Shown here: positions 29,833 through 62,278 of the stretch, in pieces
Layout: each line of letters begins with the position of its first letter
How positions within the stretch are numbered: position 1 is the first letter of the stretch
Notes under the pieces: model-generated
Told to the model about the DNA's origin: nothing
The model's input: only the letters and a program-made list of their open reading frames with translations
Databases searched by the model: none
Source of the DNA: Abyssogena phaseoliformis symbiont OG214
GTDB lineage: Bacteria; Pseudomonadota; Gammaproteobacteria; PS1; Pseudothioglobaceae
DNA length: 64,000 nt
Direction of reading: 5' to 3'
Assembly: GCF_016592595.1 (NCBI RefSeq)
Contig: NZ_AP012977.1
Span: forward strand, 124,001 to 188,000
Translations under genes and position numbers: made by a program

Positions 29833-30129
29833 ATTTTCCTTATAAAAACTTTGGATGTTCTATTAGAAAGTATTAACTTCATTAGAATTATGCGCCAAAA
29901 ACTTAGTAAGATACTAAATTTCAGCATTATACACAATCAAAAGTTTATTTTTCCCATGAATTGCTAAACTCGACAAAGTCGCCTTTGATAAAAATGATTA
30001 CTTGTATAGTATTGCAAATAACTTAAAGTATTAACATTTAACCAACATTAACAAAAAATATTTACATATATATGTAAAAAAATTATATAAATAAAGTTAT
30101 AATAGAAAATAGTATTGGGTCTCTCTCAC
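29833..30129. other. Promoter region of the secretion locus
   Basis: Roughly 300 bp, strongly AT-rich, with no gene. It holds the likely minus-strand promoter of the adhesin operon and an 18-bp perfect palindrome at 30,061. A -10-like TATAAT for the plus strand lies at about 30,098, just before the heptanucleotide array. Confidence 0.45.
30061..30078 (+). promoter_or_regulatory. 18-bp perfect palindrome, operator-like
   Basis: TTTACATATATATGTAAA is its own reverse complement. It lies about 230 bp upstream of the adhesin ATG and 50 bp before the heptanucleotide array. A dimeric regulator site is plausible; the AT-rich context means chance is also possible. Confidence 0.35.
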
Positions 30130-30241
30130 ATCAGCCATCAGCCATCAGCCATCAGCCATCAGCCATCAGCCATCAGCCATCAGCCATCAGCCATCAGCCA
30201 TCAGCCATCAGCCATCAGCCATCAGCCATCAGCCATCAGCC
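30130..30241 (+). repeat. Tandem array, 16 perfect copies of ATCAGCC
   Basis: 112 bp made of 16 identical 7-bp units with no mismatch. On the plus strand all three frames are free of stops across it, giving a 7-residue periodic text (ISHQPSA); the minus strand has TGA in every frame. It starts right after GGGTCTCTCTCAC and ends 8 bp before the 3' end of the decayed integrase gene. Confidence 0.97.
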
Positions 30242-51908: not shown

Positions 51909-52530
51909 GTGGATAAAAAGATGATTATTGGAGGAGGCATTGTTGGCTTTAATGCAGCGCAAATGGCTGTTGGTTTACAAGCAGATGTAACAATTCTTGA
52001 TACCAATGCCCATACGGTGGAAAAACTTAGTAATTATTTTGGCACTAAGGCACGTGTCTTGCATTCTAATGATAGTTTATTAAAAGCGTATATTACTAGA
52101 GCTGATCTTATTATCGGTGGTGTTTTAATTACTGGGGTGAAAGCGCCAAAGGTCATTAATAAAACCATGCTATCTTTTATGAAACGAGGCAGTGTTTTGG
52201 TTGATGTTGCCATTGACCAAGGTGGTTGTTTTGAAACCTCTCATGCGACCACGTACGGTTGACCCAACCTATGTTATAGATGGCGTTGTGCACTATTGTG
52301 TTGCTAATATGCCAGGTGCCGTTCCAATTACCTCTACTTATGTACTTAATAATGCAATCCTTTCAGGGCCTCTTGCTATTGCCAATCAGGGTTGGAAAAA
52401 AGCACTAAGCAATGATAAACATTTGTTAAATGGATTGAATATTTGCCAAGGAAAGGTTACTTACAAAACTGTTGCTGATGATTTGGGATACAAATATACC
52501 GAAACAAACACATTGCTCATGTCTTCGTAA
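51909..52530 (+). pseudogene. ald: Alanine dehydrogenase, N-terminally truncated and frameshifted
   Basis: NAD-dependent alanine/pyruvate interconversion. Only the NAD domain and C-terminus remain: MIIGGGIVGFNAAQMAVGLQADVTILD, ADLIIGGVLITGVKAPKVIN, GSVLVDVAIDQGGCFETSHATTY. A shift near 52,255 then gives DPTYVIDGVVHYCVANMPGAVPITSTYVLNNAIL and the end at 52,530. The first 160 or so residues, with the pyruvate-binding part, are absent. Clear pseudogene at the edge of the accessory block. Confidence 0.88.
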
Positions 52531-52609
52531 AGAAGAAGTAATGGGGAGAGTAATGGGAACAGGCTACTTTTTATGATACAATCCCCATCTTTTATTATCA
52601 AAAATCAAA

Positions 52610-53372
52610 ATGCTACGCCTCCCAAGAGGAGAAGCCCAAGGCGGAATTTATCATATTATCAATAGAGAGGTAACATGCGTATGCAAGTTTTTGATGATGA
52701 GGATGATTATGAGTTCTTTCTATCCTTGTTAAAAACAGGACTAAAAATAGAATTACATGCTTATTGCCTTATTGCCTTATTGCCTTATTGCCTTATTGCC
52801 TTATTGCCTTATTGCCTTATTGCCTTATTGCCTTATTGCCTTATTGCCTAATCATTTTCATTTATTAGTTGTGCCACAAGAAGAAAATAGCTTGAGCAAA
52901 TTTATACAATAGGTTATGACCTCACATGTGCGCTATTATCACAAGAAAAATAAAACCTCAGGACATGTTTGGCAAGGCAAGTTTTATAGTTGAAAAGGAC
53001 GGTTATTACTTAACATTGTTACGCTATATAGAGGCGAATGCATTAAGAGCGGCGTTAAGCAAAACAGCGCAAGATTGGCAGTATGGTTCATTGGCAGAAA
53101 GAGTTTTTAATAACAGAATATTACTACACAAACCTTATGCACAACTCGATGATTGGATGACCTATGTTAATACACCTCAATCTCAAAGTGAAATAGATAA
53201 AATAAGAGACAGCGTCAATAGACAAGCACCACTTGGTGGGGAAAACTGGGCAGCAAAAATAGCAAAAAAATATGGTTTATTGTCAACACTAAATGCGATA
53301 GGTAGAGTAAAAAATGATGATAAAAGTAGCCTGTCCCTATTCCTTCTCCTATTCCTTCAAGCCAGTTGTTAG
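52610..53372 (+). pseudogene. RAYT-type Y1 (HUH) transposase with an internal octanucleotide array
   Basis: REP-associated tyrosine transposase. LRLPRGEAQGGIYHIINREV, then after a frame change MQVFDDEDDYEFFLSLLKTGLKIELHAYC. Here the 88-bp TATTGCCT array replaces the HUH-motif codons, and NHFHLLVVPQEENSLSKF continues in another frame. A TAG stands where Trp is expected before VMTSHVRYYHKKNKTSGHVWQGKF. A further shift leads to VEKDGYYLTLLRYIEANALRAAL and the C-terminal IRDSVNRQAPLGGENWAAKIAKKYGLLSTLNAIGR. At least four lesions. The region 53,373-53,589 after it contains only a poorly coding stretch (SGGAIWIDEEGRANANKS). Confidence 0.82.
52762..52849 (+). repeat. Tandem array, 11 perfect copies of TATTGCCT
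   Basis: 88 bp made of 11 identical 8-bp units. It sits within the transposase where the family has tyrosine, cysteine, leucine, proline ahead of NHFHLL, so it grew from a native TATTGCC-like word. Each unit shifts the frame by 2 mod 3. With 11 units the upstream frame hits TAA right after the array; 9 or 12 units would place NHFHLL in frame. Confidence 0.97.
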
Positions 53373-53589: not shown

Positions 53590-53829
53590 CTACTTATTAC
53601 TTAATGCAAGTATTCCCATGGTTTGTATCATTTTTCTTTTATCAGTGTCTGATAACTGGTTGAACAACTTAATGACTATTTTATTCTCTGGATGTTCTTG
53701 GTTTTTTAGTTGTTTGGTTGCCTCCTTTTTTCCACTCATTAGCCATTCAACAGTTGTGTTTAAAGCCTTGGCTAAATCAATGATTTTTTCAGAAGAACGA
53801 CTGTCTCTTATCCTTTTACCAAGTGCCAT
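53590..53829 (-). pseudogene. Phage repressor with the helix-turn-helix core deleted
   Basis: XRE-type repressor opening (MALGKRIRDS) joined directly to the helix after the HTH (RSSEKIIDLAKALNTTVEWLMSG). About 30 codons that normally hold the recognition helices are missing, so DNA binding should be lost. The C-terminal tail (HPENKIVIKLFNQLSDTDKRKMIQTMGILALSNK) remains. It is transcribed away from the operator-promoter region at 53,877, matching the CI position of a phage switch. Confidence 0.72.
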
Positions 53830-53876
53830 GTTACAAACTCTAATTAAAAAAAAGTTATTGTAATAAATAAAACGAA

Positions 53877-53916
53877 AACAATAGTTGTTGACAAAATGAA
53901 CAATAATTGTTATTAG
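53877..53916 (+). promoter_or_regulatory. Phage switch: promoter with two matching operators
   Basis: Two palindromes share the consensus AACAATARTTGTT: 53,877-53,889 (AACAATAGTTGTT) and 53,899-53,911 (AACAATAATTGTT), with centres 22 bp apart. A plus-strand promoter overlaps them: -35 TTGACA at 53,888-53,893, 17 bp, -10 TATTAG at 53,911-53,916. The first operator overlaps the -35 box and the second lies in the spacer. This fits a repressor controlling the lytic promoter. Confidence 0.75.
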
Positions 53917-54028
53917 TAACCTACATTTAAAATAAAATATCTATACTAAAAAAACTTAAAAACATCATTCTAATAGACGAAACTCAACCATTAGAACAAA
54001 TCAAAAAACAGTACAAATCCAAAGCTTA

Positions 54029-54343
54029 TTGCTTTCTATTGTGGAAATTAGTTTTGCTGGACTTGGATTAAGTAAACAAGGATACGAGATGATTGATAAA
54101 GTGGAAGAAGTTTTAGTACAAAATGGCTATTGCACGGATACGAATAATTGCAGTAAGGACATTTTTTTTTGGCAAAATTCTAATGGTTTCAACACTACTA
54201 TTTATGGCATAACTTCTGCAAAAATTATAAATAAAATAAATACTATTACAACAGATATTTATTTTTATAAAAAATCACATAAGAATACAGGGCTTTTTAA
54301 ATCGTCATTTATAAATTTAACATTAAGCAAAGAAGGGGAATAA
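54029..54343 (+). CDS. Probable small exported phage-borne protein
   Basis: 104 codons, starting TTG, with a hydrophobic opening (LLSIVEISFAGLGLSKQGYEMIDKVEEV) that looks like a worn signal or anchor. It continues LVQNGYCTDTNNCSKDIFFWQNSNGFNTTIYG and ITTDIYFYKKSHKNTG. The two Cys (YCTDTNNC) could form a disulfide. It lies in the early, repressor-controlled area but shows no Cro-like DNA-binding motif, so it may be a cargo (moron) gene. Family not recognised. The 110 bp between the promoter and this start hold no clear gene. Confidence 0.45.
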   Translation: MLSIVEISFAGLGLSKQGYEMIDKVEEVLVQNGYCTDTNNCSKDIFFWQNSNGFNTTIYGITSAKIINKINTITTDIYFYKKSHKNTGLFKSSFINLTLSKEGE

Positions 54344-54354
54344 AAAATGAGAAA

Positions 54355-54465
54355 ATGAGAATATTAGAAATAAGAACTGATATATTTGCAGGAGAAGATT
54401 TAATTCCACACACATTTTTGTATATCTATGAAAAAGTCAAAGAAGACCAAGGTAAGTGTAAATAA
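54355..54465 (+). CDS. Short ORF downstream, possible coupled gene
   Basis: 36 codons (RILEIRTDIFAGEDLIPHTF, then YIYEKVKEDQGKCK). It follows the 54,029 gene by 11 bp, with AAGGGGAAT upstream as a fair ribosome binding site. The text looks like the N-terminus of a larger protein cut by a stop. No family. 54,466-54,644 contains nothing recognisable. Confidence 0.35.
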   Translation: MRILEIRTDIFAGEDLIPHTFLYIYEKVKEDQGKCK

Positions 54466-54644
54466 GTGTTCTAAGTGTAAACTCTAGGCTGTTTTAGGTA
54501 TTTAAGTGCTTTTGTTTTAACAATAGGCCCTTGGGGCGATTAAAGGTTCATTTTGAACGCACTTATAGATTTAATCTTTTCCCTTGAGAAATTTAACACT
54601 GAACTTTACACACAAAAGCCCAGTGAGGCTAGAAAGAACTGGGG

Positions 54645-55418
54645 TTAATAATTCATGATAAGCAGTTCATTTGATTTCTTTGTGCTTGATTTAGAGCTGC
54701 CTACAGTGTACTTAATTCCAACAGTCTTAATAGTAAAACCTTTAAAAAGTGATTTAATATCACTGTGGTCATTAATTGAAAGCAAGAACTTGCCTTCACA
54801 ATTTTGCATAAGCTCTGCCATTTTTTCATAATGCAGCCATTCAAAATCAACTGTATAACCTTCTGTAAGCCAATAAGGTCGGTCAAGATAAAAGAAAGAA
54901 AGAATGAATGCGGGCGGTCATAACGTTTGACGCAGTCATCCCAAGCCATGTGCTCAATATTGACACTAGATAGCCTTAAATGTGCTTGGCTTAAATCTTT
55001 CCTCAATACGTAGTAAGTTTAGCCTTGATGCACCTAAAGTTGATGTACCATAACTTTGCCCAGTTACTTTGCCACCAAAGCGTAACTTTTGAAGATAAAA
55101 AACCGTGCGGCTCTTTGGGTATCAGTCAACGTATCAACACTAGCCATTTTCTCCCACTTAAACACCTGCCTAGAACTTAAAACCCATTTAAACTGCGTTA
55201 CAAACTCGTTTAAATGATGTTTAACGACACGATATAGATTAATTAAATCACCATTTATATCATTTATAACCCTCTGCTTTTGATGGCTCTTTTAAAAACA
55301 ATATCGCTGCGCCACCTGCAAATGGCTCGCAATAACAAGTATGCTTTGGTATTAAAGGTAATATTTCTTTTGCTAGTCTTCTTCCCCCCATCCAAGGGAT
55401 TATTGGTTTGTGTTTCAT
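54645..55418 (-). pseudogene. Phage D12-class adenine DNA methyltransferase, multiply broken
   Basis: N-terminal [40 protein letters not shown] has the WMGGK-like SAM site and the FxGxG motif I. The catalytic region retains DRPYWLTEGYTVDFEW in two frames, where DPPY is expected (Pro changed to Arg). The C-terminal part (CEGKFLLSINDHSDIKSLFKGF and VGSSKSSTKKSNELLIMNY) is the D12 ending. At least five lesions lie between. It follows the tail module on the same strand. 55,419-55,556 holds only a short cysteine-poor stretch I cannot name. Confidence 0.72.
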
Positions 55419-55556
55419 TTTTTGAGTTCCTTTTAAAGTCGTTTAAAATAACCCTTGCAGTTCGCGAACTGTGGAGAGCCGTGCTTACTCATAGTTGTAG
55501 TATGGGTGAGGTTGCTTGTTAGTGTTGGCGCATTACTAATCATCGCTCTTCTTTTC

Positions 55557-56583
55557 TTAAAAGCCGCCTCCTTTCAAGCTTTCAAAACTTAGTGTGGTTT
55601 TCCAAGCCTTGTCCAGCACATGGGCAACCTTAATGATTTGATAAATATGATTATCTAAAGATAGTTCACTGCCAGCAAAGACCACACGTCCACGCATTGT
55701 TAAGCTACTTACTACAGTTGATTTATTAGCCTTGAGGAACGTATTTTCTGCACAAGCCAAAGCCTCAGTGTCATTACTAAATTGTTTTTTAACACTAATC
55801 GCGGGTGTGAGCCCTTGCCTGCGATTAAAGTGTGTTGTTTAGTTGTTTAGTTGTTTAGTTGTTTAGTTGTTTAGTTGTTTAGTTGTTTAGTTGTTTAGTT
55901 GTTTAGTTGTTTAGTTGTTTAGTTGTTTAGTTGTTTAGTTGTTTAGTTGTTTAGTTGTTTAGTTGTTTTCGTGTTGTGATAAACAGCCTTACACGACCTA
56001 TAAAGTTTTTTATTTGAGTAAGTAATATCACTATCAATACAACGGTCAATATCAACACACACGTAGGGCATATCAGCAGACTTATCCATTAAATACAACA
56101 AGTTATTTTTTATGTTAAAAACTAGATTGTTGTCTTTCGCCAAACGGTTCAACAAATCAGTATCAGACTTATTGTATTGCTGAATAATGCCAGTTAAAAT
56201 ATCAGTATTAGCTCTTATTTTTAGACCATGCTGCTGTGCAATAACATCAGCCAATTGCGACAATGTACCCACATCATAATTTAAATTTCAGCGTTCTTTT
56301 AAACCGCCACTAAAATCAACCCCTGCCGCACTTATTGTTAGCACTTTATTGTCTTTGACATTAGTTGTTTACACAAAGAACAAGCCAGCAAAAGTAAATA
56401 ACCTGACTACACCTTTATTTCATCTTTATAACTAGGCCTCTTGAATTTCTTTGACACTGATATCACCAACTCATCAGCCTCGTCTTTTTCATTGTCAGTA
56501 ACAGAAATACTTATTAAATAACGCCTAATATTGTTAGTCACATCCTTGCTATTTACTATAATTCTAAAGTTTGGGGTTACCAT
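55557..56583 (-). pseudogene. Phage gpD tail hub protein, copy 2, with an octanucleotide array
   Basis: The N-terminus (VTPNFRIIVNSKDVTNNIRRYLISISVTDNEKDEADELVISV and YKDEIKV) is followed by TAG and shifts. Then come MGTLSQLADVIAQQHGLKIRANTDILTGIIQQYNKSDTDLLNRLAKDNN and VYHNTKTT. The 16-unit GTTGTTTA array (TAAACAAC on this strand) follows, then the C-terminal TKQHTLIAGKGSHPRLVLKN and KSTVVSSLTMRGRVVFAGSELSLDNHIYQIIKVAHVLDKAWKTTLSFE. Every frame through the array meets TAA. The 3' part ends GGGF at 55,557. Confidence 0.78.
55834..55968 (+). repeat. Tandem array, 16 copies of GTTGTTTA plus 7 bases
   Basis: 128 bp of perfect 8-bp units (55,834-55,961) and a partial unit to 55,968. It interrupts gpD. 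On the gpD strand TAA recurs in all three frames within any three units, so unit gain or loss cannot reopen the gene; this array is not a plausible on-off switch. Confidence 0.97.
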
Positions 56584-56768
56584 AACGCATCCTCTTCACT
56601 GGTGGTTTTTCTTTGCGGCATATTAACCACATCACCAACATCTAAAGCCGTAGCATCAATTAAAAGATTAGCACCTAACACCAAATCATACATAGACAAG
56701 TCACCATAATGTTCGTGCACCAGAGTATCTAATCTAGTGCCTTGATAAATAACTGTAACCTTATCCAT
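56577..56768 (-). CDS. P2-like tail protein X (LysM-like)
   Basis: 63 residues (MDKVTVIYQGTRLDTLVHEHYG...DVGDVVNMPQRK) with the gpX pattern: short strand, hairpin around LDTLVHEHYGDLSMYDLVLGANLLI, and a VVNMP ending. It is needed to assemble contractile tails and may bind peptidoglycan. Intact, between gpU and gpD as in P2 order. An alternative TTG start lies at 56,777. Confidence 0.75.
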   Translation of the reverse strand: MDKVTVIYQGTRLDTLVHEHYGDLSMYDLVLGANLLIDATALDVGDVVNMPQRKTTSEEDALW

Positions 56769-56787
56769 AAACAACACCTAGAGAGAC

Positions 56788-57128
56788 TTAAAAGTCTTGC
56801 TTTAAAAACTCCCCATACTTTAAAAATAAAGACTTATCAGTCTCTATTTTCTAAATAACTACTTTTAAAGGCTTTACCATTTTCAAACGCTAAAGTTACA
56901 ACACCCTTAACACGTGCAATCACCTCTAAATTCTCAAGGCTTGAGTTAGGTTGTTTAACAAACGCACCACTCAATGTAATATCTTGCTCATATTGACCCA
57001 CGGCTTGCCAAATGTCGAAATGATTTAACGTCGCTAAGCGTTCAAAATCTATAACTGTGAGATTGTTTCAAGCTATCTAAATTAACACCATTAGACTCAA
57101 ACAAAAAATCATTAAGCAAACACAGCAT
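56788..57128 (-). pseudogene. P2-like tail protein U, frameshifted
   Basis: Starts LCLLNDFLFESNGVNLDSLKQ (gpU opening xxLGxFxF), then shifts into ERLATLNHFDIWQAVGQYEQDITLSGAFVKQPNSSLENLEVIARVKGVVTLAFENGKAFKSSYLENRD. A stop before the last KSLFLKYGEFLKQDF completes it. gpU caps the tail terminus. At least two lesions. Its ATG overlaps the tape-measure TAA. Confidence 0.65.
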
Positions 57129-58905
57129 TACAAGTCCTCATCCAGTAGAGAAGTATTGCTATTGTTCAGTGCCTTTCCAAAAGCGCGCTCTACATCTAGC
57201 TTACTACTCGGGTTATACCCGCTAAAGTCTTTTTAGTTGCAGCAGTGGTAGCAGTTGGCTCTTTATCGCCATCATCACCAAACCAGTTTCCAATAGTCGA
57301 AAATACACCACTAACCATGCCAGCACTATCTACAATAAAACTAAAAACCCCTTTAATCTTAGCCCATACCGCGTCAATCAACTTAGTAAAGGGTTCAAAG
57401 TTTTTATAAAGATATACAACACCTGCTGTTAGTGCTCCAACACCAGCAATTATTACGCCAATTGGGTTAGCATTAAGTGCTGTATTTAACAGCCACTGCG
57501 ATGTAGTCGCAGCTTTAGCGCCAATTGACCACAGCGCTTGTGCGGCAGTAATTGTTTTGGTTTTAATGCTACTAGCCAACATACTAACGTTTAGAATCCC
57601 TAACTTAGTGGTTAAACCTAAGAGTGATTTAGATGTACTAAGTGTGACAAGTTACCAAGCTAACTTCCGCAGCCTTTATAGCAACAATAGAAACCTTTAA
57701 AACACCAACACCTAAACTAACGATAGTTGTTGTTAACCAAGGTAGTTTTTCATCTGCCCAAGTTATTCCTTTTGCTAAAGCGCCAAAACCAACAGTAACC
57801 ATATTAATAGCAGGCTCTAATATTTTGCCAAAGGTGTAAACCTAGATACTCTACAGAATGTCCAATTTTTGCAAACCCGTAACCTCTGTCCATCGCCTTT
57901 GCTATTTGATCAGACTTTGCCATACCGTTTGCCATTGCATATTCAATATCACTCTGAGCCTTAACCAAATCACCCGATTTATCAATCAATGCCATAATGA
58001 TTTTTTTAGCGTCATCAAACCCGAACGCTTCTTTAATTTTGTCTTGAACTTCTACATTTTGTAAATCACTAAACTCAGACTTAAAATTATCCAACACGTC
58101 AACCATTGGCAACATCTTACCGTTACTGTCTGTGAACTGTATTCCGAGTTTTTCCTGTGCCTTGCCCACACCATTTAAAAACGCTTTATATCCAGTGGCT
58201 GACTCACTAGCAGAACTAAAAGCAGACTTGCTCACGCCGGTAATAGCCAACTCTTCAGCCAATGATACCCCATCGCTTTCGCCGACGCACCAATGTTTGA
58301 TAATCCTTGTGACAAATCAGAACTATCCGTTCTAAACGATTGCACAGACTGAGCAACGGAACCACTAAAAGACTTGCCAAAACCTATATCAGAACCAAAA
58401 TCTGTGCGAAAAATACCATACCCTAAAAGCGTACAACTTAGTCATTTGCTCAACCGATGCCTTAGTTGCTACTGCAGTAGTTAGTTGCTGCCATTTTTGT
58501 GAAGTCTTTAACGCCACTCTCACTCAAACTAGCAATATCACTCTTAATGTCATAACTCGCTTTGATAAACTGCGGCGCTGTTATTTGCCCAAACTGAGTC
58601 ACCATTCCACTACCAGCTTTAGTGATTGCTTGTATACCTCGCTCAGATATTTCAAGTGATGCAAGCTGTCCTTGTGCTTGCAGTTCATCCGTGGCCAACG
58701 AGTACGACTTACCCATTGCAAAAGCCGCGCCACCAGCTGCGACCATCTCACCTCCGCATGGTAGAAAACTGAGTTTTAATACTGCCAAGCCTACTATTAA
58801 TTGCGCCTAACCTTTTCTCAGCGTTTTTTTGTAGCAGTTGTAAAACTAGAGCCTAACTTACCCCTGTTTAATTCTTTAACTATAACAAGCGCTATTTTTT
58901 TGGCT
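57128..58905 (-). pseudogene. Phage tail tape measure protein, broken into fragments
   Basis: Minus-strand text begins LGAINSRLGSIKTQFST, GEMVAAGGAAFAMGKSYSLATDELQAQGQLASLEISERGIQAITKAGSG. It continues VKDFTKMAATN and SDIGFGKSFSGSVAQSVQSF, and a long piece GVGKAQEKLGIQFTDSNGKMLPMVDVLDNFKSEFSDLQ...AFGFDDAKKIIMALID. The hydrophobic ALNANPIGVIIAGVGALTAGVVYLYKNFEPF follows and it ends SKLDVERAFGKALNN. Phage TMPs have the ANPIGVIIxxV..L element. Several shifts; the total is shorter than intact P2-type TMPs, so deletions are likely. Confidence 0.75.
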
Positions 58906-59099
58906 TATTCGATACTAAGATTAACCGTCTCTCTTTCTCCATTTTCGTCTGCCACTTTTTTCCAAGGAAAGCTCTCAATTTCCAGGCTAATCATGGTATT
59001 TATAATGTTAAGAAACTGATGTGCCCTATGTTCATTAAATTCGAAATCACCTATTTTTTTACCTTCACTTAAAATTAAATCTCTTTCTACATCATCCAT
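58905..59099 (-). CDS. Small tail-assembly-like protein ahead of the tape measure gene
   Basis: 64 residues, MDDVERDLILSEGKKIGDFEFNEHRAHQFLNIINTMISLEIES. Position between the fibre-related genes and the tape measure is where P2-type tail assembly chaperones (E and E') stand. The sequence is not close to gpE by eye. A TMP-like piece continues in another frame just downstream. Confidence 0.4.
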   Translation of the reverse strand: MDDVERDLILSEGKKIGDFEFNEHRAHQFLNIINTMISLEIESFPWKKVADENGERETVNLSIE

Positions 59100-59101
59100 T
59101 G

Positions 59102-59560
59102 TTATAACTCCCTTACGATTAAATTGCTAGAACTGGCCATGTCATTACTAGAACGATCGTTAACGCGCGTAGTTCTTTTAGTACCACTCCACTTGCAAAT
59201 CACGCCAATTTTTATGGTATGAATGCCAACGTTTAAAACGACAGACGATGTGTTGTACGGCATGTGCATTAACCAACCATTATTACCATTGCTGTAATAC
59301 ACATTCATACAATCAATATGACATAAATTCCTACCCGTGCCCTTGTTGATTGCAACGTCGTCAACATAAACTGCAATTCCACAGACGTGGTAAAAAGTAC
59401 CCGCAATTGTGCCACTTATTTCAAGCTTGCATGGTGTCAAAACTTCAACCTCGCCTTGCATGATGAAGACTGGATTGCTGCTATTTATTGTAATTCTTGA
59501 CTGGCTGTTGACAACAGACAAGGGTGGGGGTATTTTGTTTTTTGAAACAACATAGATCAC
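59102..59560 (-). CDS. Tail-fibre region protein with beta-rich composition
   Basis: 152 residues from GTG 59,560 (overlapping the TGA of the preceding gene), starting IYVVSKNKIPPPLSVVNSQSRITI and containing GTIAGTFYHVCGIAVYVDDVAINKGTGRNLCHIDCMNVYY. VLNVGIHTIKIGVICKWSGTKRTT follows. The repeated short strands suggest a jelly-roll or sandwich, fitting a fibre or virion decoration protein. Function unknown; it is an accessory in the tail cluster. Confidence 0.45.
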   Translation of the reverse strand: MIYVVSKNKIPPPLSVVNSQSRITINSSNPVFIMQGEVEVLTPCKLEISGTIAGTFYHVCGIAVYVDDVAINKGTGRNLCHIDCMNVYYSNGNNGWLMHMPYNTSSVVLNVGIHTIKIGVICKWSGTKRTTRVNDRSSNDMASSSNLIVREL

Positions 59561-59799
59561 TTGATTACTCCTAAAACTGTATGCCCGAAGTTGGAGCTTC
59601 TGTCCTTTACCCATAGACTGACAGGTTGATTAAATGAAACACCCTCTAGCGACAGTGGTATCGCATTACTCTCATCAAGAATACCAACACAAATAATGAC
59701 ACCGCCAAGAATAATAGGCAGAATAGTACCTGTCTCATTTTCTAAAATTGGTTTCCATTCTGCGGATAATTTGTACCGTTTTGAGGTTAGGTGACTCAT
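59557..59799 (-). CDS. Small fibre-region protein of unknown function
   Basis: 80 residues, SHLTSKRYKLSAEWKPILENETGTILPIILGGVIICVGILDE. Ends LWVKDRSSNFGHTVLGVIK with TGA overlapping the GTG of the next gene. Its start overlaps the preceding gene's end. A hydrophobic beta-strand core suggests a small structural subunit. Not recognised. Confidence 0.4.
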   Translation of the reverse strand: MSHLTSKRYKLSAEWKPILENETGTILPIILGGVIICVGILDESNAIPLSLEGVSFNQPVSLWVKDRSSNFGHTVLGVIK

Positions 59800-60348
59800 C
59801 TTTTTTGCTCCATTTTTCAAAGTTAGTTATTATTATTTCCAGTTCATTTTTACTATTCGCCGCTTTAATATCTGCAAGTGCCTTTTTCTCAGCAATGTTT
59901 AATTGCTGAGAAGCTCTAAACACATTAAAGTGCTTTGATAAAATAAGGCTGGTTAGTTGTTCTACGCTGATATTCTTATCATCAGCTTCAGCTTGTAACT
60001 TTCTAACAGCAGTTGCCTCATTTTTGAGTGCAAATTTAGACAAAGTGGTTTTAGTTGTATATTCTGCTAATTTTCGCGGCGAAAATGGCGCTAGCTCTAT
60101 TTGATGGTTTGATGGTTTGATGGTTTGATGGTTTGATGGTTTGATGTAGCGGATGTTATTCTTTGCCTATACTGTTCTTTGCGTTTAATTTCGTTTACAA
60201 AAACATTGCCATTTTCAACTTTCAAAAATGCCAAATCGGTTGATAAATTATCATCAAGGAGGGTTAATTTATTGCCCGACTTTTTGTAATTTTTTAGCGT
60301 TTCAAAGCCAAAAACCTCAGCTGTTTTTGTATTGATACAGTGAATCAT
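59735..60348 (-). pseudogene. Tail-fibre-associated gene split by an octanucleotide array
   Basis: N-terminus IHCINTKTAEVFGFETLKNYKKSGNKLTLLDDNLSTDLAFL and VFVNEIKRKEQYRQ, a repeat-encoded stretch (SNHQTIKPSNHQTIK), then TAG. In another frame the protein continues IELAPFSPRKLAEYTTKTTLSKFALKNEATAVRKLQAEADDKNISVEQLTSLIL and EIIITNFEKW, ending at 59,735. The array is the only visible break: removing one unit or adding two would join the frames. Function unknown; the position suits a fibre assembly protein. Confidence 0.55.
60101..60146 (+). repeat. Tandem array, about 5.75 copies of TTGATGGT
   Basis: Five full 8-bp units (60,101-60,140) and six more bases, perfect throughout. It splits the gene at 59,735-60,348. 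Because 8 bp is not a multiple of three, unit number changes the downstream frame. Confidence 0.95.
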
Positions 60349-60351
60349 AAG

Positions 60352-60995
60352 CTACCTCAACTCGTATACTTTGCCATATCCAGGCACTCTATAAGTGTCG
60401 CCCGGTGGAATAATCATCGAAAATCTTGATTTATTGCCATTATTGCCACAGACTAAATTATTAATACTCGCTAAAGCAATGTTTAATTGTGTTTGTGTTA
60501 CTGGCCCACTTGTTGTGCTGTTACGCCGTGCAGGTTGTTTTTATTAGTTAAATGAGCAGACTGAGTTGCAATTTTTGGCAACCACAAGGTGCTCATTTCA
60601 GTATTGGTAACGTAGTCACTAGCTTTAAAAACAACCTTGCCAGTACTGCCTTGTAGCAATAGCTACTTTTTTAATAGTCACCGTACCACCAATACCTTTA
60701 ACTAAAGCCACCCTAGGGGTGTCAGAATTAACAACAACCTTGTTATCTGTGTCAATGATTGTAATTTTATGAAGATATTGATTAAAGTTTTGCGCAATAG
60801 GCAAATTAAGCACAAAAGTTAAAACACCCCCAGCATCAAAATAACTAGTTGCAATCTGCATTTCAAAAAAGACTTGTAATGCACTATCTACAGCGTCATG
60901 CGTTTGTGGCGCCAATCAGCTGATATTTCTTTGCGTTGGCTTTTAGATTGCTGTGCAAAACCATAATCAGTTGCTTGAGTATTTAAAGCATCCAT
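60352..60995 (-). pseudogene. Tail fibre (gpH-like) short remnant
   Basis: Begins DALNTQATDYGFAQQSKSQRKEISADWRH at 60,995, shifts into QTHDAVDSALQVFFEMQIATSYFDAGGVLTFVLNLPIAQNFNQYLHKITIIDTDNKVVVNSDTPRVALVKGIGGTVTIKKVAI, and shifts again through GKVVFKASDYVTNTEMSTLWLP. It ends GNKSRFSMIIPPGDTYRVPGYGKVYELR. The middle piece is the fibre-base unit seen in tail-collar fibres. It is much shorter than normal fibres, so the receptor-binding part is mostly lost. Its ATG overlaps the gpI stop region. Confidence 0.6.
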
Positions 60996-61471
60996 TGCAT
61001 TTCTCTCTGAACACTAATATTGGCAATTGTTTCAGGTAAACGTACCTCAAAATCACCAAAACGGCTGCGTGCGTTCTTAACTGAATTAGCAAGTGCTTTG
61101 GAGGCATTAAACTTGTTCACTGAATACGCTTTATTACTATCCAAGGTCACAACGGAGCTAAACATAAAAAGCTTATCAAACTCTTTAACTTGAGCATCTT
61201 TAAAGACACTACGTAGTGCGGTCTCTACCGCATAAACAGTACCCTGTATTTGTTTAGCATTAGCAAGCAATACTCTTTGCTCAGATTCATCTAAACCATT
61301 TAAGCTTAAGCTATGCTGCAGAGCTAAAAACCTTAGTAATTTTTTATCGCAAGTTCTGGGGCTAATGTCAAACACAGTTAAATCAATGCTTAATATTTTG
61401 TCAGTAACTTGGTCTAATGCTTTTTCAATACCAGCACTAGCAGGCGGTAAGATTATGTGAAAATCAGGCAT
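60983..61471 (-). CDS. P2-like tail protein I
   Basis: 162 residues and uninterrupted. PDFHIILPPASAGIEKALDQVTDKILSIDLTVFDISPRTCDKKLLRFLALQHSLSLNGLDESEQRVLL is the gpI opening (LLPP...LAxxxxV.W), followed by the helical QIQGTVYAVETALRSVFKDAQVKEF. The end reads RSRFGDFEVRLPETIANISV. gpI is a baseplate protein linking to the fibres. Its ATG overlaps the gpJ stop. Confidence 0.8.
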   Translation of the reverse strand: MPDFHIILPPASAGIEKALDQVTDKILSIDLTVFDISPRTCDKKLLRFLALQHSLSLNGLDESEQRVLLANAKQIQGTVYAVETALRSVFKDAQVKEFDKLFMFSSVVTLDSNKAYSVNKFNASKALANSVKNARSRFGDFEVRLPETIANISVQREMQWML

Positions 61472-62278
61472 TTAAACCTCCACGCTTAAAAGTTAATTGC
61501 ACACTGCTGATGCTAATAATTTCAGTATCCAAGCAAAGCACATCCTCATCTTTAGCTTGGCTTTTTAAATGCACTCTATAAACACCATTTATATGCAGTT
61601 TATTGATGATTTCAGAGTACGTTAAATTCTGCCCTATTTTGAGTTGAGTAGCAAAGCCGCTTAAAATATTTTCTTCAATACCTATTTTTTCATCTAAATT
61701 ATTGAGCTCAATAATTTAGATGAAAAAATAGTCGTTGGTTTTTAACCGCGCGAACAACGCTGACATTATCAGTCAGCTGGCGTACTTTTTTGTTGCTTAC
61801 AGTCTCACCAACACGCAGCAATAATTCATTACTAATAGCGCCGATACTTGATGTAATTACGATCGTAATAAATCCAATTTTCGGGCTAAAAGCATGCACC
61901 CCATCAATCAAGCTATCTACGCTCTTTGCATGAAACTTATAGCCCTCAATAGAGCCCACCGTTGAATGGCCAAAAAACACTATCTGCAACACGCTGTCTG
62001 AATGCTTCATCAGATTCACCACTAAGCCTGCTAACACCATAATCAACAGCTACAATATCTAGCGCATCACTCTTGGCGTAAAGTAGTAACAAACTTTTTA
62101 GCTGCGCGACAAACTTATGATACTTATCAACCTCACGATAATTAAAAGCTTCAAGCAATAATAGTCGCTCGTCACCCTCTATCGGTATATAGGTCAGGTC
62201 TAGTGTTTTTAAAAGTTCTAAATTAGTGGTCAATGCTTGCTCAAAAGTAGGCATATCGAATACATCAAAATCAGGCAA
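61464..62278 (-). pseudogene. P2-like baseplate protein J, interrupted by an inverted duplication
   Basis: PDFDVFDMPTFEQALTTNLELLKTLDL, then YREVDKYHKFVAQLKSLLLLYAKSDALDIVAVDYGVSRLSGESDEAFRQRVADSVF. A shift near 61,985 leads to GHSTVGSIEGYKFHAKSVDSLIDGVHAFSPKIGFITIVITSSIG and VSNKKVRQLTDNVSVVRAV. At 61,731 the 50-bp palindrome adds an inverted copy of the LNNLDEK codons and stops the frame. The tail reads IGIEENILSGFATQLKIGQNLTYSEI, ending TFKRGGLNA. gpJ forms the baseplate edge. Confidence 0.75.
61682..61731. repeat. 50-bp perfect palindrome inside gpJ
   Basis: Two 25-bp arms, exact reverse complements meeting at GAGCTC with no loop (left arm starts CTATTTTTTCATC, right arm ends GATGAAAAAATAG). 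The right-hand arm in the gpJ direction matches native coding (NNLDEKIG), so the other is an inverted copy. Confidence 0.97.

Follow-up and report, generated by a model that had tools for sequence, protein, structure and literature searches.

How does a perfect tandem array come to be born inside coding DNA? The question is raised by eleven TATTGCCT units in a transposase gene of the Abyssogena phaseoliformis symbiont (genome G000), within the 64,000-nucleotide stretch that we analyzed as a whole and call the window. The birth of simple-sequence arrays in bacteria is, in our view, mostly inferred afterwards. Here, sister genomes and homologues show the state before the array at several loci, in most cases a near-duplicate pair or else a short run that became uniform as it grew. 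We consider it probable that the transposase array is young and selectively neutral, that it came from an imperfect pair in a decaying RAYT gene, and that it belongs to a genome-wide process.

An array beside the catalytic motif of a decayed RAYT gene

Eleven exact TATTGCCT units with a period of 8 occupy positions 52762 to 52849. TRF run on the window revealed a repeat at 52760 to 52849 (period 8, 11.2 copies, 100% match, no indels), and the unit count is 11.25 with the flanking CT included. The same positions are covered by ten overlapping exact 16-mers, which occurred in 0 of 100 dinucleotide shuffles of the window, so that both TRF and the exact cover confirm the eleven copies counted in the initial annotation. 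The array thereby has the at least five perfect head-to-tail units, at 100% match, of a VNTR-like locus. The exact two-unit word is found nowhere else in the single-contig genome of 1,542,177 bases. The copy numbers given here for G000 come from one assembly.

The initial annotation had spoken of an array inside the HUH motif and had set it at the codons before NHFHLL. The array lies outside the HFH triplet: the stretch taken by the array corresponds to the five codons Y-C-L-M-P (15 nt) immediately 5' of N-H-F-H, which we take to be the HUH motif. Because the ancestral stretch has 15 nt, 8n nucleotides restore the frame only for n divisible by 3 (3, 6, 9, 12), and n = 11 is out of frame; the earlier expectation that 12 or 9 units would bring the motif back into frame thus holds. 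This arithmetic applies to the frame running into the array from 52675, with which the start codon at 52610 is already out of frame through a separate 2-nt insertion. All three forward frames are open across the array.

Table 1. Features of the transposase locus and other perfect arrays of the window
Feature	Positions	Strand	Basis
Alanine dehydrogenase/transhydrogenase C-domain gene remnant, frameshifted, upstream neighbor	51909..52530	+	AlaDh_PNT_C in two frames
Left REP-like end, ACAGGCTACTT	52559..52569	+	Word search
RAYT (Y1_Tnp/IS200-like) transposase pseudogene	52610..53323	+	PF01797; comparison with G031 copy
2-nt insertion (AGAGAGG vs AGAGG), start codon out of frame with body	52664..52669	+	Alignment
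9-nt in-frame deletion (27 nt vs 36 nt in L059 between the same words)	52735..52755	+	Word spacing
TATTGCCT array, 11 perfect units, period 8, in place of 15-nt Y-C-L-M-P stretch	52762..52849	+	TRF, 16-mers, homologue comparison
Codons N-H-F-H, directly 3' of array	52850..52861	+	Sequence, alignment
Nonsense change TGG (Trp) to TAG	52910..52912	+	Alignment; one TAG also in PF01797 match
8-nt deletion, frameshift	52975..52985	+	Alignment
Right REP-like end, inverted copy of ACAGGCTACTT	53324..53335	-	Word search
Second long perfect array, CATCAGC x16.1	30129..30241		TRF, array scan
Third long perfect array, GTTGTTTA x16.9, in an apparent decayed prophage	55834..55968		TRF, array scan
Fourth perfect array, TTTGATGG x5.9, in the prophage-like region of the GTTGTTTA array	60100..60146		TRF, array scan

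The host gene is dead. PF01797 (Y1_Tnp) gave a match of 24.4 bits (cut-off, 23) that spans only positions 48-103 of 121 and includes one TAG. The DNA 3' of the array shares 78% identity with the G031 copy, which has an open reading frame for 220 aa. N-H-F-H and the inverted REP-like ends on both sides (ACAGGCTACTT at 52559 on the plus strand and 53324 on the minus strand) are those of a RAYT, and the frameshifts and TAG make the gene a pseudogene of this family. Four lesions besides the array (+2 nt, -9 nt, TGG to TAG, -8 nt) bear out the initial annotation, which had seen other damage and had doubted a working switch. The full alignment sets the gap of the 9-nt deletion at another place than word spacing does, and a TAG at the nonsense site is also present in a decayed copy in G024. 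ACAGGCTACTT also precedes the RAYT copies of G031 and Gsub. Dispersed REP copies numbered 0 in 18 other 20-kb stretches of G000, which speaks against an active RAYT family and not against RAYT ancestry. The neighboring AlaDh remnant aligns with part of an AlaDh remnant behind trmD in G010, where no RAYT is present.

Homologues retain an imperfect pair at the array site

What did this stretch look like before the array? The ancestral reading was taken from the copies in G031 and G021, the latter truncated where its contig ends, and from 22 loci in Ca. Thiodubiliella endoseptemdiera and other bacteria. The motif scan covered 27 loci and matched 21 rows (L020 and L059 are probably one record), and no array stands in the motif of any of these. 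The close homologues carry TATTGCCTGATGCCT, TATTGTCTTATGCCT or TATTGTCTAATGCCT, with the pattern TATTG[C/T]CT[G/T/A]ATGCCT, and homologues in other genera have one unit and a near-copy, for example TATTGCCT-GATGCCT. The exceptions are the B. brooksi symbiont, with TACTGCCTTATGTCC, and the decayed G024 copy, which lacks most of the seed word. In these homologues, the usual state is thus one unit followed by a 7-nt near-copy, as dictated by the codons Y-C-L-M-P. The native TATTGCC-type seed proposed earlier is thus found in the close homologues, with these two exceptions. What that proposal had missed is that the seed appears to be an imperfect pair and not a single word, and that the near-copy was seemingly lost as the array formed; in the window copy the 7-nt near-copy is absent and there are exact units only.

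When the sequence 3' of the array was compared with 58 genomes, 10 had matches, G000 included (best candidates, at most 9 per genome). Among those listed, matches within the genus are short pieces only, of 76 bp in G004 and some 25 bp in each of G001 and G009, and matches in the same family reach 512 bp in G031, 209 bp in G021 and 130 bp in G024. Since none of the sampled genus genomes has a comparable copy of this RAYT stretch, they give no direct estimate of the age of the array within the genus. A paralogue with the same array, which the initial annotation had said would mean old inheritance rather than recent growth, was sought in G000 by PF01797 and by DNA and was not found: the DNA search of the genome with the RAYT stretch returned the locus itself and an unrelated 54-bp piece only, and two divergent RAYT copies in G000 have no array. 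These two copies (L009 and L010; G000:C1:475186 and 797204) are far apart and identical over the matched 210 bp, and in both the match is split between frames.

The RAYTs of Ca. Thiodubiliella endoseptemdiera are 85-86% identical to the intact G031 protein in 5 of 6 loci. In Ca. Endonucleobacter from a deep-sea mussel, a GAGGCTAA x5.25 array lies just behind a RAYT-like match (L064:2688-2729); RAYTs may be exchanged among deep-sea mussel bacteria. The unit of the RAYT array also forms TTGCCTTA x5.75 in a viral contig (L089:7530-7575), beside imperfect copies and in an unrelated setting. This imperfect array was the one match to the unit in viral contigs, and we rejected it as probably a coincidence.

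Long perfect arrays are in excess in this genome

Is the array special to the RAYT gene? We sampled 424 kb of G000, consisting of the window and 18 spaced 20-kb stretches (L071, inside the window, was counted once). Long arrays were defined as perfect, with at least 5 copies, at least 40 bp and a period of 4-20, a threshold set after G000 was inspected. The kb totals leave out the short uvrD stretches L234-L245 and small loci. By this measure G000 has 8 long perfect arrays with unrelated units of 4-9 bp: CATCAGC x16, TATTGCCT x11, GTTGTTTA x17, TTTGATGG x6, TTGTGT x18, TTGC x37, TTGATA x9 and AAATAGTTA x22. They lie in unrelated genes, pseudogenes and spacers, and none of the others was seen in a RAYT gene. 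The array is therefore not special to its host gene, and an explanation that is genome-wide should be preferred over one local to the transposase.

Two of the arrays lie in a prophage-like part of the window (53590-61500), which has a CI-repressor-like match just under the cut-off and further genes that, by their appearance, we take to be phage-like. TTGTGT x18 stands at the start of an RNase D-like frame (L073:1913-2021); it is in frame and would give a long QT run if translated.

A first sampling of six relatives, 200 kb each, contained no long arrays. Wider sampling gave 1 in 400 kb in G004 and 0 in 400 kb in G010, so that the uvrD-intact relatives (n = 5) have 1 long array in 1,400 kb. G007 has 1 in 360 kb, in the stretch at 1,100,001, which was picked after an array had been seen there in L117; the other 340 kb have 0. 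The difference between 8 arrays (424 kb) and 1 (1,400 kb) gave 6e-5 in a conditional test, and 0.007 without the window, which was chosen for its arrays. When a minimum of 3 copies and 24 bp was required, the counts were 12 versus 7 (2e-4; without the window, 0.005), and with a minimum of 3 copies and 40 bp they were 8 versus 4 (0.002; without the window, 4 versus 4 and 0.06). Comparison of G000 with G010 alone, without the window, gave 4 to 0 (0.05), and comparison with G007 gave 0.034 with the window and 0.19 without.

Shorter arrays do occur in relatives, including two of 15-bp units. G004 has its long array, TTTTAATG x6.5 (L263:18806-18857), at a place that is filled in three relatives by 25 bp of different sequence; long arrays are therefore possible with uvrD intact. 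The array of G007, AAACAACAG x10 (L253:6365-6456), ends a sequence that is present at many other sampled G007 places and that is probably an insertion element.

Near-copies present in relatives are missing from the arrays

We compared 13 loci, RAYT included, with their counterparts; at 8 of them, not counting RAYT, the two flanks found matches in relatives. We named the RNase D-like, cytochrome-like and truA loci by eye from translations. At the RNase D-like locus, G000 has 18 copies of TTGTGT versus at most 2 in 3 relatives; behind typA, 36.75 copies of TTGC versus 0 to 6.75 in 10 relatives; at the cytochrome-like locus, 9.3 copies of TTGATA versus about 2 in 2 relatives; and before truA, 22 copies of AAATAGTTA versus 1 to 3 in 7 relatives with clean flanks. 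For these 4 of the 8 long arrays, the sisters thus have 0-3 copies of the unit (6.75 in one). One relative was matched at the accA locus and one at the AAAAAC locus. The CATCAGC locus has a match in G007 whose left flank is only 72% alike and a match in G002 that is too loose. No counterparts were found in relatives for 4 loci, including both arrays of the prophage region, for which there were none in 39 other genomes (best candidates, at most 10 per genome).

An imperfect neighboring copy carried by relatives is missing in G000 at the RAYT, RNase D-like, cytochrome-like, truA, accA and uvrD loci; overwriting therefore preceded or accompanied growth. Comparison of these sequences indicates that near-duplicates were made uniform and then multiplied at several G000 loci. 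Among 11 relatives compared at the uvrD locus, 6 have exactly 16 bp between the flanks, which in 4 of these read ATGGTTGT-ATTGTTG[CT]. The uvrD remnant of G000 has a nascent array at this place, ATGGTTGT x3 (24 bp; L234:1220-1243, from G000:C1:261801-265200). Here, overwriting and one added unit are caught together.

uvrD is broken in two lineages of a genus without mutS

Three panels of E. coli repair proteins served as queries (E up to 0.001), and mutS was also sought with a family model. The E. coli queries for mutS, mutL and sbcD had no match in the 12 genus genomes, and the mutS family model matched 0 of these 12, with 11 of 14 controls positive. uvrD is open in 10 of the 12 and broken in G000 and G007 only; among the panel genes kept by most relatives, it is the only one broken in G000. 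Six indels separate G000 uvrD from that of G010, among them a 246-nt one and another of exactly 8 nt, which extends the nascent array. G007 uvrD has three small indels that differ from those of G000, and the losses were therefore independent.

Long open frames in G000 match recA, recJ, sbcB, xseA, polA, recG, dnaQ and recF, as well as, among the matches listed, recR, recO, ruvA, ruvB, ruvC, topA, ssb and priA. With long open frames for these 16 panel genes, we rejected other repair genes of the panels as the cause. A Rep query hit the uvrD places and pieces of them, as well as a small number of further helicase-like frames. Broken frames or stops in relatives affect xseA in G010, sbcB in G002 and G003, and recF in G007, where a remnant is left of the gene that is open in G000. 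recA was matched in G000 and G007, with no match in G001 and G003. Passages of PMC3202245 likewise report recA as intact in the symbionts of Isorropodon fossajaponicum and Abyssogena phaseoliformis and as absent from Ca. Vesicomyosocius okutanii and Ca. Ruthia magnifica, and passages of PMC5310779 describe uvrD as collapsed in 2 of 12 clam symbionts, those of Isorropodon fossajaponicum and Abyssogena phaseoliformis, by different patterns. G000 and G007 probably correspond to this pair.

The dapE-trmD region was not enough to resolve the clade in a tree. With polA added, G000, G007 and G010 form one clade (96/97), and G010, whose uvrD is intact, is therefore the best control. Sorted by uvrD state, long arrays number 8 in 424 kb in G000 and 1 in 360 kb in G007, versus 1 in 1,400 kb in five of the ten intact genomes.

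Discussion

How might the array have grown? On the reading that we prefer, a young and neutral array from an imperfect pair, the RAYT codons Y-C-L-M-P would have supplied one unit (TATTGCCT) and a 7-nt near-copy (NATGCCT). The near-copy would have been replaced by an exact unit while the gene decayed, and the pair would then have been multiplied to 11 by misaligned copying or by recombination between neighboring units. Both steps, a uniform pair and then multiplication, would have been repeated elsewhere in G000 and only rarely in sister species. Misaligned strand exchange or slippage would be favored over hairpins, because the units barely fold. We rejected hairpin-driven expansion, since three of four folds have -0.6 kcal/mol or weaker; the fourth, the complement of the RAYT unit, has -1.4 kcal/mol, is equaled by 13 of 200 shuffles and is weak support at best.

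Imperfect repeats are stabilized by mismatch repair and UvrD. In a genus without MutS and MutL, loss of UvrD may have removed the remaining barrier to pairing of imperfect neighbors and so led to the burst of arrays, and uvrD is indeed inactive in G000, as repeat instability through UvrD loss presupposes. Judged from one strong and one weak case, the proposal that loss of this helicase started the burst falls a little short of an even chance. The link rests on the strong case, which is confounded with lineage. Against it stand G007, where uvrD is broken too and there is yet little array excess, and one array with a 4-bp unit, which is within the reach of mismatch repair. G007 lacks both UvrD and RecF, and would show little array birth if the RecF pathway fed the process. 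This extended proposal, that UvrD loss without MutS/MutL but with RecA and RecF gives two-step array birth throughout the genome, is more tentative, and as a whole we think it rather unlikely.

Ordinary replication slippage that does not involve UvrD, in a decaying symbiont genome that lacks mismatch repair and simply has more unguarded DNA or more time, has a substantial though less than even likelihood. It is consistent with the absence of mutS from all 12 genus genomes, with the position of several arrays in pseudogenes or intergenic DNA, and with passages of PMC3202245 and PMC5310779, in which reductive evolution and short repeats are a theme of the group. It also fits the 7 shorter arrays that some uvrD-intact relatives have in 1,400 kb at the loose threshold, the small excess in G007 despite its broken uvrD, and the equal counts (4 versus 4, 0.06) at 3 copies and 40 bp without the window. 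However, the relatives lack mutS too: G004, which is as large (1.52 Mb), has 1 long array in 400 kb, and the sister G010 has 0 in 400 kb. Moreover, work cited in a passage of PMC3477136 found mutS loss to be without effect on repeats with units over 5 bp. An assembly or sequencing artefact, that is, a false expansion of short near-repeats, is improbable. There is one assembly, and most long arrays were seen in one genome; but arrays of 47 to 199 bp should fit ordinary read lengths, several grew from a seed found at the same place in independent assemblies, the units vary in size and sequence, and the uvrD change is only from 16 to 24 bp.

Two further explanations concern the RAYT locus itself. 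A local effect of the element, with the repeat provoked by the transposase or by its REP ends, would suit an array within a transposase gene, beside the catalytic motif and between inverted REP-like ends. It is very improbable, as it predicts no arrays elsewhere in G000, where they exist and were not seen in RAYT genes, and as 0 of 21 matched RAYT rows have an array in the motif. The same count argues against a phase-variation (contingency) switch in which unit number toggles the transposase. An 8-bp unit does shift the frame with every step, and the array is open in three forward frames; but the gene also has the +2 insertion, the nonsense codon and the 8-nt deletion, and the other G000 arrays are in unrelated genes, pseudogenes and spacers. 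We find a switch hardly credible in general and reject it for this RAYT copy, whose other lesions show that the gene is not otherwise intact.

If the UvrD link is true, an E. coli mutS uvrD laboratory strain with the 15-nt seed would allow array birth to be measured directly, and the loss of repair genes would have one more consequence in shrinking symbiont genomes. If the part of RecF is also true, a single mutation would be enough for array birth in such lineages, and the uvrD remnant would carry its mark.

In bacterial VNTR and simple-sequence contingency loci, perfect units follow one another head to tail, and a change in their number shifts the reading frame. The RAYT array resembles them in both respects; in contrast, its host gene is dead, the homologues are without the array, and the pre-array seed is visible. 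The RAYT genes of the Bathymodiolus symbiont Ca. Thiodubiliella endoseptemdiera share the motif YCLMPNHFH, but one assembly has six RAYT loci with no array in the motif, whereas G000 has one dead copy at this locus. The vesicomyid clam symbionts with disrupted uvrD in PMC5310779 are alike in that uvrD decayed independently in exactly two lineages. Passages of that paper treat the density of short repeats as a theme; long tandem arrays such as those described here are absent from the passages covered, and a search of the open literature, mostly titles and the beginnings of abstracts, found no report of long perfect tandem arrays in these symbionts.

Two experimental systems are closest to the proposed role of UvrD. 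Mutation of yeast Srs2, a UvrD homologue, leads to triplet expansion according to passages of PMC2845805, in which Srs2 blocks expansion via hairpins, which it unwinds more effectively than UvrD. The two cases share repeat expansion after a helicase of the UvrD type was lost, but the yeast triplets form hairpins and the G000 units barely fold. In the passages covered of PMC3477136, an E. coli uvrD mutation raised contraction of the tolA tandem repeats 3.3-fold, with no significant effect of mutS; a recA mutant retained 15% of this contraction, and there were 0 expansions among 150 colonies. As proposed for G000, UvrD limits the rearrangement of tandem repeats in that system, and mutS is irrelevant for 15-mer units. 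The E. coli case differs in that 15-mer units contract in a laboratory mutant, whereas in G000 units of 4 to 9 nt expanded and the loss is a natural one.
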